Under the pieces are notes generated by a model. It searched no databases. It saw only the letters and a program-made list of their open reading frames with translations, and was not told where the DNA came from. The position numbers and the translations under genes were made by a program. Positions 37,906 to 41,541 of a DNA stretch of 64,000 nt are shown here, one piece after another. Within the stretch, counting starts at the first letter, position 1, and the number at the start of each line of letters is the position of its first letter. Origin of the DNA: an uncultured Paracoccaceae bacterium (lineage in GTDB: Bacteria > Pseudomonadota > Alphaproteobacteria > Rhodobacterales > Rhodobacteraceae); NCBI GenBank assembly GCA_947489705.1, contig CANLEQ010000006.1, positions 1 to 64,000 of the forward strand. The letters run 5' to 3'.

Positions 37906-37927
37906 GACCTTATCCGCGGATAAGGTC
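37906..37927. repeat. Partition-site palindrome, copy 1
   Basis: A 22-bp perfect palindrome contains the 16-bp core CTTATCCGCGGATAAG. It lies 9 bp beyond the parB stop, between parB and thiD. It is the longest of four copies in 2.6 kb, all within or flanking parAB, and is a likely ParB-binding (parS-like) site. It could also form a hairpin between the convergent genes. Confidence 0.75.
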
Positions 37928-37936
37928 CGCTTGACG

Positions 37937-39043
37937 TCAATCGAGTCCGTCCATCAACGCGGCGATCGCCCGTTCCAGTCTCTCTCGCTCCATCGTCGAG
38001 AAATCGCGATCCGCCTTGATCTCCAGACGACCCGAGGCGGCGGTACACTTGACCCGCCCGCTTGCCGTCCTGAGGTCGAACGTCGTCTTGCTGCCGGCCT
38101 TGTTCTTGCCCCTCCCCCTGGGACTCGTTTGGCCGGAGGTCGCGGCACGCGCGTCGTCCGGTGCCGCGTATCTTCGCAAGACCTCGAGCTCCTCCTCCTC
38201 CGAGCGCACCTCCCCTGCCCCTAGTTCCGACAGGATTTCGGCTGCCAATGCCGGCTCCGCCTCCAGCACGCGAGAGAGATCGACACCAAGCTTTCGAGGA
38301 ACCGACGAGGGATAGTGCAGACCGGTCCCAATCGCGTCGAGCAGGCGCGCGAAGGAGCGGATATAGCTGCGCTTGGAATACGGCGCGGACTGGAAGAGCG
38401 CCCCGATGGCGCCTTTGAGGTCGTTCTCGGGCGTCGCCGGATCGGCAGCATAGTTCTGCGCGGCATTCGCCATCTCGGCAAAGGAGAGATCCTTGCGGAT
38501 GATGTTCTCGTCCACCATTCGGCGATAAAGCCCGGCGACATCGTTCCCTCTGGCGATGATCAGGGCCGGGATCTCCGCCCACCCCGCGCCGTCACTTTCA
38601 AGCAAGGCGCGATATGCCGTCAGACGCCGATGGCCCTGGATCAACTCGTAGCCACTTCCATCCGCGCGCGGCTCCACCCGGATCGGGTTCGACAATCCCA
38701 CATCGCGAAGTGATGTGATGAGATCCGCGAGCCCTTCGTCCTCGCCCGGCAATCGCTCGCGCGTCAAAAGATTGGTATGGACCTGATCGAGCGGTATTTT
38801 CAGGACCACCTGTCCCTTGTCCCTCAAGGCGACGTATTCGTGCGCCAGGGCGTCGTTTTCGGCGCGGATCGCCGCTTCGGCATGGCTGCGCGCCTGCAAA
38901 GCGGATGCATTCTCGGAAATGGCGCTTGCCATCGGGCCGCGGCGCCCCGGCGCAGGAGCGGAAACCGCTTGCTCTTCCGGCGCCGCTTCCTCCTTCGCGT
39001 CGCCCGGCATCTCGATGTCGAAGATACGTCTTCTGCGGCTCAT
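37937..39043 (-). CDS. parB: ParB-family partition protein
   Basis: The 368-residue protein has a ParB/Srx N-terminal domain: KIPLDQVHTNLLTRERLPGEDEGLADLITSLRDVGLSNPIRVEP, GYELIQGHRRLTAYRAL and the helical stretch RRMVDENIIRKDLSFAEMANAAQNYA. A central HTH-like region (PYSKRSYIRSFARLLDAI) should bind the palindromes. A charged linker with Lys/Gly-rich GRGKNKAGSK and a C-terminal dimerisation-like segment close the protein. It is 47 bp downstream of parA, and a palindrome copy sits in that gap. It works with ParA in segregating this replicon. Confidence 0.9.
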   Translation of the reverse strand: MSRRRRIFDIEMPGDAKEEAAPEEQAVSAPAPGRRGPMASAISENASALQARSHAEAAIRAENDALAHEYVALRDKGQVVLKIPLDQVHTNLLTRERLPGEDEGLADLITSLRDVGLSNPIRVEPRADGSGYELIQGHRRLTAYRALLESDGAGWAEIPALIIARGNDVAGLYRRMVDENIIRKDLSFAEMANAAQNYAADPATPENDLKGAIGALFQSAPYSKRSYIRSFARLLDAIGTGLHYPSSVPRKLGVDLSRVLEAEPALAAEILSELGAGEVRSEEEELEVLRRYAAPDDARAATSGQTSPRGRGKNKAGSKTTFDLRTASGRVKCTAASGRLEIKADRDFSTMERERLERAIAALMDGLD

Positions 39044-39066
39044 CTGTTCTTTCCTCTCGTCGAAAG

Positions 39067-39082
39067 CTTATCCGCGGATAAG
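39067..39082. repeat. Partition-site palindrome, copy 2
   Basis: The 16-bp core CTTATCCGCGGATAAG occurs in the 47-bp gap between parA and parB. Palindromy ends at the 16-bp core (g/g mismatch outside it). Binding here could also adjust parB expression. Confidence 0.75.
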
Positions 39083-39090
39083 GTGGGGGC

Positions 39091-40470
39091 TCAATCCGCC
39101 TCGACGATCCGCGTCCAGGCCGGCATCATGGTGCCGTGAAATTCCTCGTACGCGCAATCGAAGCTTGCCCGTGCGCGGCGCCAGGTCTCGCGCGTCATAT
39201 CTCGATAATCCATCTCGTAGATCGATGCGAGGAACCGGCCCGATTGCTCCACGGCGCGCGTCATCTCGACAGGATGCTCCGCGAGCTTGTCCCCGAACAC
39301 CTTTCCGTACGCGTCGAGCATCGCCCGATGAAGGTCGTTGCCAGGCTCGTATCGGGTCAGTAGGAACCGTATGTCCTGAAACACCTTGGGCAGGGACACC
39401 TTATCCGCGGATAAGGTATCTGCGAAACCGTGCGAAAGGTCTTCGAGCGCTTCTGAAAGCTGGCCGATGAACGACGTCGTGCTGTCGTATTCCCAATAGC
39501 CGGGACCCGACGGGATGTAGAGCATGTCCGCGGCAAAGACGGCATTCATCGACTGATAGCCGATCGCGGGCGGGCAATCGAAGAAAATCAGATCCCATTG
39601 ATCGTCGGGAAGCTGATCGAGATATCGCGACACCGCCGCGAAGAACGACCATTCGGGATTCAGGTGACGGTACTGCGCCGAGGCGAATTCGACGAAGGCC
39701 GCGTTCGCGCAACTCGGAATGATGTCGATCGTCGACCACGCCGTGCTCTGGATGAAATCCGCGATACGAAGGTCCTGGAGGCCCATATCGGTGATCGAGG
39801 CGGGAATGGTCCGACGGGGCAGGGCCGTGCCGGAGGCCGCACCGGCCGGGGCCGCGTTCATCGCCTCGGTCTGCCTTACCAGATCACGCGCCATGATCCC
39901 CCAGACCGTCTGCTCCTCGCTGACATCCGTCAGGCCCATCGAATGGCTGAGCGTCGCCTGCGGATCGAAATCCACGCACAAGACGCGATACCCATCCAGC
40001 GCCGCGGCATGTGCGAAATGCAGCGCCACGGTGGACTTGCCCGCGCCGCCCTTGAAGTTGGCGATTGCGGTGCGAAAGGCGCGCCCCTTGGGGCGCGGCG
40101 GGGAGAGCGACTTGCCCTTCACCTTGAGCTTGCGCCGCAGGATATTGACCTCGTCGAGCGAGAACCACCGCTGCCGTCCCTCCGGCTCGACCAGACCTGC
40201 GGGCAGGGTAGGGTCGGTGGCCATGCGTCCGCGCAGCGTCGACTGGTTCACCCGAAGGATCAACTCGGCCACTTCCCAACTGGAAAACCGTCGCAACGTC
40301 TTCACGTTCTCGGGCGAAAATGTCTGCTGACGGATCCAGCCCTGCATCTTGAGGGAGCGGGCTTGGATATCCCGCAGGTCGGTGTGATTTAGCATGAAAC
40401 CTCGGACGCTATTGGTCGCAATGTCGGCATTTACGCCGAAAGCCGCAGTTTTGTCGAGAACGAAGATCAT
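39091..40470 (-). CDS. parA: ParA-family partition ATPase with N-terminal HTH
   Basis: The 459-residue protein has an N-terminal DNA-binding segment (RFSSWEVAELILRVNQSTLRGRM, then RQRWFSLDEVNILRRKL), as in RepA/type Ib-like plasmid ParA proteins. The ATPase has a deviant Walker A KGGAGKST (residues 140-147), VDFDPQATLSHSMG and IFFDCPPAIGYQSM. It drives replicon segregation with ParB and probably represses its own operon. The track start 40470 uses an AAGG within the upstream palindrome as Shine-Dalgarno; ATG 40395 is a credible alternative. A palindrome copy lies inside this coding sequence. Confidence 0.9.
   Translation of the reverse strand: MIFVLDKTAAFGVNADIATNSVRGFMLNHTDLRDIQARSLKMQGWIRQQTFSPENVKTLRRFSSWEVAELILRVNQSTLRGRMATDPTLPAGLVEPEGRQRWFSLDEVNILRRKLKVKGKSLSPPRPKGRAFRTAIANFKGGAGKSTVALHFAHAAALDGYRVLCVDFDPQATLSHSMGLTDVSEEQTVWGIMARDLVRQTEAMNAAPAGAASGTALPRRTIPASITDMGLQDLRIADFIQSTAWSTIDIIPSCANAAFVEFASAQYRHLNPEWSFFAAVSRYLDQLPDDQWDLIFFDCPPAIGYQSMNAVFAADMLYIPSGPGYWEYDSTTSFIGQLSEALEDLSHGFADTLSADKVSLPKVFQDIRFLLTRYEPGNDLHRAMLDAYGKVFGDKLAEHPVEMTRAVEQSGRFLASIYEMDYRDMTRETWRRARASFDCAYEEFHGTMMPAWTRIVEAD
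39398..39417. repeat. Partition-site palindrome, copy 3 (inside parA)
   Basis: A 20-bp perfect palindrome around CTTATCCGCGGATAAG sits inside the parA reading frame, where it encodes part of TLSADKVSL. Keeping a perfect palindrome in a coding region, with a sequence identical to intergenic copies, implies selection for protein binding. Confidence 0.75.
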
Positions 40471-40479
40471 GCTATAAGA

Positions 40480-40497
40480 CCTTATCCGCGGATAAGG
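40480..40497. repeat. Partition-site palindrome, copy 4 (upstream of parA)
   Basis: An 18-bp perfect palindrome around the same core lies 9 bp upstream of the parA ATG. It overlaps the candidate parA Shine-Dalgarno, so ParB or ParA binding could autoregulate the operon as well as mark the partition complex. Confidence 0.75.
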
Positions 40498-40851: not shown

Positions 40852-41541
40852 ATGCAGATCAGACATGCCTCCGGACCCGGGGCGTCTGCGGTCAAGTACG
40901 ACATCCTGACGGCGCTCCTTGCAATGGCGGCGCAGGACGGCGGGACGAAAGGGCGACTGGCGCTTCGGCTCTCGCTGCTGATGACCGCGCGCTACAACTG
41001 GCGTGCCGGCACTTTCGCCGTCGGTCAGCGCGAGATCGCGCGTCTCTGGGGCGTTACCGAGCGAACGGCAAAGCGCGACCTCGCGCAGTTGCGGACCCTG
41101 GGCTGGATCGCCGTCCTGCGTCCCGCCGCGCGGGGAAGGGTGGCGACCCATGCGATCGCGATCGAGACCATCCTCGCCGACAGCATGGCGCGCTGGCCCA
41201 GTGTCGGGCCCGACTTCGCGGCGCGCATGACCGGGAGGCAGGTGCCGGAGGCAACGAGCGACAGCAACGTTGTCCCGTTCCAGCGTGATACCGGCGACAC
41301 GGCGCCGCTGGCGGACGATCCGTGGGGCAGGGCAGCACGTATCTTGCGCGACCAGGATCCGGCCCTGTTCCAGGCTTGGTTCGCCCGCCTCAGGATGGCC
41401 GAACTTTGCGATGGCCGGCTTCAACTGATTGCCCCGTCTGGCTTCGTGGCGAGTTATGTCAGCACGCATCTGCGGCCGATCATCCTCGCGGCGATGGCGC
41501 GCTCAGGGGTGGGCGTGCGATCGGTCGACATCACGACATGA
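40852..41541 (+). CDS. DnaA-like plasmid replication initiator (wHTH plus DnaA domain-I-like C-terminus)
   Basis: The 229-residue protein has no AAA+ domain. Residues about 15-95 form a winged-helix-like DNA-binding region (FAVGQREIARLWGVTERTAKRDLAQLRTLGWIAV). The C-terminal about 75 residues (DPWGRAARILRDQDPALFQAWFARLRMAEL, RLQLIAPSGFVASYVSTHLRPIILAA) closely resemble domain I of chromosomal DnaA, the DnaB/DiaA-interacting part. This matches the DnaA-like replicase type described for Roseobacter-group plasmids. It is divergent from parAB and preceded by GAGGAGAG. It probably melts or loads helicase at the adjacent origin. Confidence 0.85.
   Translation: MQIRHASGPGASAVKYDILTALLAMAAQDGGTKGRLALRLSLLMTARYNWRAGTFAVGQREIARLWGVTERTAKRDLAQLRTLGWIAVLRPAARGRVATHAIAIETILADSMARWPSVGPDFAARMTGRQVPEATSDSNVVPFQRDTGDTAPLADDPWGRAARILRDQDPALFQAWFARLRMAELCDGRLQLIAPSGFVASYVSTHLRPIILAAMARSGVGVRSVDITT

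Follow-up and report, generated by a model that had tools for sequence, protein, structure and literature searches.

The window analysed here, a stretch of 64,000 nucleotides, corresponds to bases 1-64000 of a 219,883-bp contig in a draft assembly, in which the contig is not closed. It harbors a parAB operon, a replication initiator gene divergent from parA, and four exact copies of the 16-bp palindrome CTTATCCGCGGATAAG, whose half-site is CTTATCCG (Table 1).

Table 1. Genes and candidate parS copies of the parAB locus, in window coordinates
Feature	Position	Strand	Description
parS copy 1 (candidate)	37906..37927		22-bp perfect palindrome GACCTTATCCGCGGATAAGGTC, 9 bp past the parB stop codon; 16-mer at 37909-37924
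parB	37937..39043	-	368 aa; ParB_N at residues 81-163; helix-turn-helix (predicted) whose recognition helix starts at residue 222
parS copy 2 (candidate)	39067..39082		16-bp perfect palindrome in the parA-parB gap, 23 bp ahead of the parB start codon; 16-mer at 39067-39082
parA	39091..40470	-	459 aa; ParA/RepA-type ATPase, KGGAGKST P-loop, N-terminal extension
parS copy 3 (candidate)	39398..39417		20-bp perfect palindrome within parA, coding T-L-S-A-D-K-V; 16-mer at 39400-39415
parS copy 4 (candidate)	40480..40497		18-bp perfect palindrome, 9 bp ahead of the first parA start codon; 16-mer at 40481-40496
DnaA-like-I replication initiator	40852..41541	+	229 aa; DnaA_N domain at residues 161-215 (PF11638, E=9e-8)

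The original prediction described a 16-bp core repeated four times, in perfect palindromes of 22, 16, 20 and 18 bp, within or flanking parA and parB and nowhere else in the window. A recount and a search for maximal palindromes gave the same figures, the copies lying upstream of parA, in parA, in the parA-parB gap and just past parB, and the two gene assignments were borne out by domain and profile matches. No further window site was found at up to three mismatches, where dinucleotide shuffles yielded a mean of 0.26 and a maximum of 2. The base composition (67.6% GC) predicts about 5e-6 exact copies per 64 kb and 0.0004 per genome; with an expectation below 0.001 copies per genome, the cluster of four is not due to chance. 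The search of the whole genome that had been proposed as a check (4.34 Mb, 156 contigs) found the 16-mer clustered on the parAB locus only, with no exact copy outside the window and one 2-mismatch site on another contig (C65).

Judged by its sequence, the locus belongs to the DnaA-like-I plasmid replicons known from Rhodobacterales. The initiator shares 56% identity with the protein of Marinovum algicola DG 898 (CP010860) annotated as 'plasmid replication protein DnaA-like-I', and the parAB operon adjoins the replicase gene in the standard order, which recurs in six complete plasmids. A Walker-type ParA with an N-terminal extension, a large ParB with ParB_N and helix-turn-helix, and repeats near parAB that appear, by sequence, to be parS specific to the cognate ParB together place the system in ParABS type Ia. 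RepABC replicons carry repA, repB and repC in one operon; no repC was found among the ORFs around the locus, and ParA and ParB score far under the RepA and RepB cut-offs of the RepABC profiles. Contig C1 of the genome carries a separate, chromosomal parB, near which lie one-mismatch copies of the chromosomal parS, TGTTTCACGTGAAACA; the parS-like sites are approximately 1.4 and 3.2 kb from that gene. The window has no TGTTTCACGTGAAACA site within three mismatches, in agreement with the earlier statement that the core is unlike the chromosomal parS consensus. In total, eight ParB_N proteins above the Pfam cut-off are encoded in this genome, on contigs C1, C6, C9, C26, C30, C34, C39 and C55, and therefore several partition-like systems may coexist.

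Both ParB and the 16-mer were searched for in one set of 298 genomes of the family. Nine of these contain the exact 16-mer, and none of the genomes with only a more distant ParB carries it. Of the seven relatives whose ParB is at least 60% identical, five have an exact match to the 16-mer at parAB; in the remaining two, the corresponding spots hold forms with one mismatch, and one of this pair additionally has exact copies on two further contigs. The sites in the relatives recur at approximately -1440, -353, -32 and +1120 relative to the parB start, and the -1440 site, equivalent to copy 4, is conserved in many of them. The original prediction had also pointed to related plasmids as a check, and in the six complete ones (91-598 kb), which have 3 to 6 sites each when one mismatch is allowed, a single copy at 355 kb of Roseicitreum pRA01 is the only one that does not lie at parAB. 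We also looked for a cell in which two DnaA-like-I plasmids coexist with unlike cores; the Loktanella salsilacus pair comes from different strains.

These positions bear on whether the palindromes might be only transcriptional operators, through which ParA/ParB represses the parAB operon. One copy directly ahead of parA and one directly ahead of parB would fit such a role, but the copies in parA and past parB are also conserved, and a repressor would have no evident use for a site in those places. A scan for sigma-70-like promoters there found none, although such scans are weak in this group. We therefore regard an exclusive operator function as very improbable; a second role as operators is possible for copies 2 and 4, next to the parB and parA starts.

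More distant ParBs are accompanied by other palindromes at the same places: CTTCCCCG/CGGGGAAG, TGTCCCCG/CGGGGACA, TTTCCCCG/CGGGGAAA or CTTACCC(A/G), and GTAACCCG in the most distant ParB group. On a tree of 94 ParB proteins, the CTTATCCG class forms one clade of 25 (support 99), many members of which were gathered via the palindrome itself, the ParB-based sample being the seven relatives described above; 23 of the 25 have perfect sites, and in the other two the equivalent spots carry copies with one mismatch. With classes assigned by a motif filter, all of the palindrome classes together require 24 changes on the tree, as against 61.5 with shuffled labels. Since the ParBs related to that of the window have at least five palindrome classes, there are probably more specificities than two compatibility groups. 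Some TGTCCCCG-class replicons, three of which we noted, have 8-10 palindromes at and downstream of parB, with isolated copies elsewhere in the assembly on other contigs.

The copy within parA provides a view of the selection on the DNA itself. In 45 loci, a palindrome of one class or another occupies a single ParA alignment column in a single codon phase, and the peptide over the site varies with the class (LSADK, FPAGK, VPAGT or LPMGK). In the window this peptide is L353-K357, and codon 353 is the sole TTA codon of parA; TTA is rare, accounting for 5 of the 22,180 codons in the long ORFs of the window. A fixed place combined with a class-dependent peptide is what selection of the sequence by a DNA-binding protein would produce, with ParA simply tolerating the peptide, and on this comparison of sequences we conclude that selection acts inside parA at the DNA level, independently of the protein sequence. 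Sister loci have an extra site near the parA start, CTTACCCG/CGGGTAAG, coding TLPAGK; at that spot the window parA reads TLPAGL and has no site within three mismatches. The parA site is a clear natural case of a DNA signal dictating the protein sequence that overlies it.

An AlphaFold2 model of the window ParB is of good quality in the helix-turn-helix (pLDDT approximately 85-92) and of modest quality as a whole (mean 72.6, pTM 0.51); its closest solved folds in the PDB are Noc, ParB and KorB. The underlying alignment starts at residue 2, so its numbers are one lower than those of the full-length protein used here. The model places a helix at residues 222 to 241, with 222 and 223 in its first turn, and Y222 and S223 are accordingly predicted to start the DNA-recognition helix. 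In a profile alignment with chromosomal ParB, S223 pairs with the K of GKSR (K171 in Caulobacter numbering), and Y222 falls in or beside an alignment gap at G170. Both G170 and K171 are parS-contacting residues conserved in ParB and Noc (PMC7383237).

In 81 loci with perfect sites, these two residues vary together with the half-site. Residue 222 corresponds to bases 1-2 (Y with CT in 46 loci, R with TG in 23, P with TT in 7 and K with GT in 4) in 80 of the 81, the exception being an R with GT (locus L222). Residue 223 corresponds to base 4 in 79 of the 81 (Q with C in 43; S, T, M or V with A in 36), with two exceptions (loci L168 and L180). P with TT is found in two separate groups, the TTTCCCCG group and locus L197, as is K with GT, in the GTAACCCG group and locus L218. 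An independent-pairs test had only 1 to 4 pairs and did not reach significance; because these were too few, co-changes on the branches were counted instead. Among 308 columns, residue 222 ranks top for bases 1-2 (4 of the residue's 6 changes shared, p 1.9e-5) and residue 223 ranks top for base 4 (each of the 3 changes of the base is shared, p 3.0e-5), or approximately 0.006 and 0.009, respectively, after correction for the 308 columns. The test counts seven changes of bases 1-2 and three of base 4, and the tree was built quickly and leaves many forks open; with so few events on such a tree, the covariation is strong but not final. For base 5 (T versus C), no clear residue emerged on the tree, and the best columns, S43 and L363, reach 0.008 uncorrected.

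On balance, we favor a two-residue code, in which residue 222 would read bases 1-2 (Y=CT, R=TG, P=TT, K=GT) and residue 223 would read base 4 (Q=C; S/T/V/M=A), together setting the identity of the centromere from positions that align near those conserved in chromosomal ParB/Noc. The centromere would then have diversified repeatedly, with the parA copy rewriting the ParA peptide each time.

The covariation also bears on the idea that the palindromes are sites for a replication initiator, either DnaA boxes or sites of the DnaA-like protein. The half-site does contain the DnaA-box-like TTATCC, and the replicase gene is 0.36 kb off; nevertheless, the sites flank parAB and not the replicase gene, the changes in the palindrome track residues of the ParB helix, and sister replicons have TGTCCCCG, TTTCCCCG or CTTCCCCG at the same positions, none of which is a DnaA box. 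We rejected the DnaA-box version because the TTATCC core is missing from these positions in the sister replicons, and an initiator site of any kind is highly improbable. That the palindrome is a dispersed repeat or a terminator hairpin with no role in partition is hardly credible: despite many scattered copies in three other assemblies (128, 20 and 13), it occurs only at parAB in the genome of the window, is not followed by a terminator-like T run, and tracks ParB in both position and sequence.

In the 2.2-Mb assembly of alpha proteobacterium 3107 (JPPB contigs), the 128 copies are dispersed, with arrays spaced by 30 bp and 55 bp and with shared flanks, and no relative of the window ParB was found there. 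The other two assemblies are the metagenome-assembled genomes (MAGs) Silicimonas MASabin.3, with 20 copies, and Loktanella bin.44, with 13; their copies are mostly off parAB and often lie in long open frames where they are read as LSADK, as though the palindrome were moving from gene to gene in frame. In other Rhodobacteraceae, a CtrA-box-like TTAA-N7-TTAA occurs at fixed offsets in 5 of 17 off-parAB palindrome loci (background, 0.4%), starting 26 bp ahead of the palindrome in three and 22 bp past its start in two; the genes flanking these five are unrelated. A common neighbour gene of the single chromosomal copies in other Rhodobacteraceae was sought and none was found. Two loci (L057 and L067) have the palindrome in the same gene, probably pyruvate dehydrogenase E1 beta (start MATEILMPALSPTMEEGTLAKW), approximately 310 nt past the start.

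Taken together, the conserved place, the restriction to a ParB clade, the covariation with the recognition helix and the retention in parA make it very likely that the four palindromes act as parS, and hence as ParB-binding sites, and so form the centromere of a DnaA-like-I Rhodobacterales plasmid. The original prediction had proposed a ParB-binding site specific to a plasmid compatibility group. The same four lines of evidence support its ParB-site reading, with one refinement: the core is common to a clade of several genera and related DnaA-like ParBs have various cores, so the palindrome marks a ParB subclade, not a replicase type.

As parS, the palindromes would function as follows. A ParB dimer would read each 16-bp inverted repeat, with its CTTATCCG half-sites, by the N-terminal end of the recognition helix (Y222, S223). 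By analogy with other ParB proteins, ParB would load at the palindromes, probably with CTP-gated clamping and spreading, and the ParA ATPase would then separate the ParB-loaded complexes, passing the plasmid on to each daughter cell. Through the copies by the two gene starts, ParB or ParA may in addition act as a repressor of the operon. If the palindromes are parS, the window ParB would strongly prefer CTTATCCGCGGATAAG and bind CTTACCCGCGGGTAAG more weakly, with TGTCCCCGCGGGGACA as a further comparison sequence. Rhodobacterales cells can hold many low-copy plasmids, and how their partition systems stay apart is a practical question; the table of ParB residues against centromere bases that the relatives of this locus provide could make compatibility predictable from sequence, and the predictions could be tested by two-residue swaps.

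Centromere palindromes are already known from such replicons, and the unfamiliar part is the putative two-residue code. For the DnaA-like replicons of Rhodobacterales, which like the window have a DnaA-like-I replicase beside parAB, the abstract of Petersen et al. 2011 reportedly proposed conserved palindromes of the module as centromere anchors, with two compatibility groups. The exact palindrome CTTATCCGCGGATAAG had no match in the searchable literature, and in the literature searched we found no description of a two-residue specificity code; the table of residues and bases and the codon-level analysis of parA, likewise not found there, are additions of this work.

RepABC plasmids of Rhodobacterales resemble the window in having group-specific palindromes near the partition genes, regarded as partition anchors; the compatible groups 1 and 2, with TTAACAG/CTGTTAA and TTCACAG/CTGTGAA, are told apart by a single reciprocal base change (PMC5613091), and RepB of pAMI4 binds parS in vitro (PMC9040568). 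The palindromes of groups 1 and 2 are 14 bp long, in contrast to the 16-bp sites of the window, and the RepABC replicase, RepC, is encoded inside the operon, whereas the replicase gene of the window is divergently oriented and its product has no relationship to RepC. The chromosomal systems ParB-parS and Noc-NBS share with the window a 16-bp inverted repeat read by a ParB-fold protein (PMC7383237), but the site sequence differs. In ParB and Noc, specificity resides in residues 173 and 201, with 179 and 184 being permissive (PMC7383237), whereas the specificity-tracking residues of the window ParB, 222 and 223, align near G170/K171.
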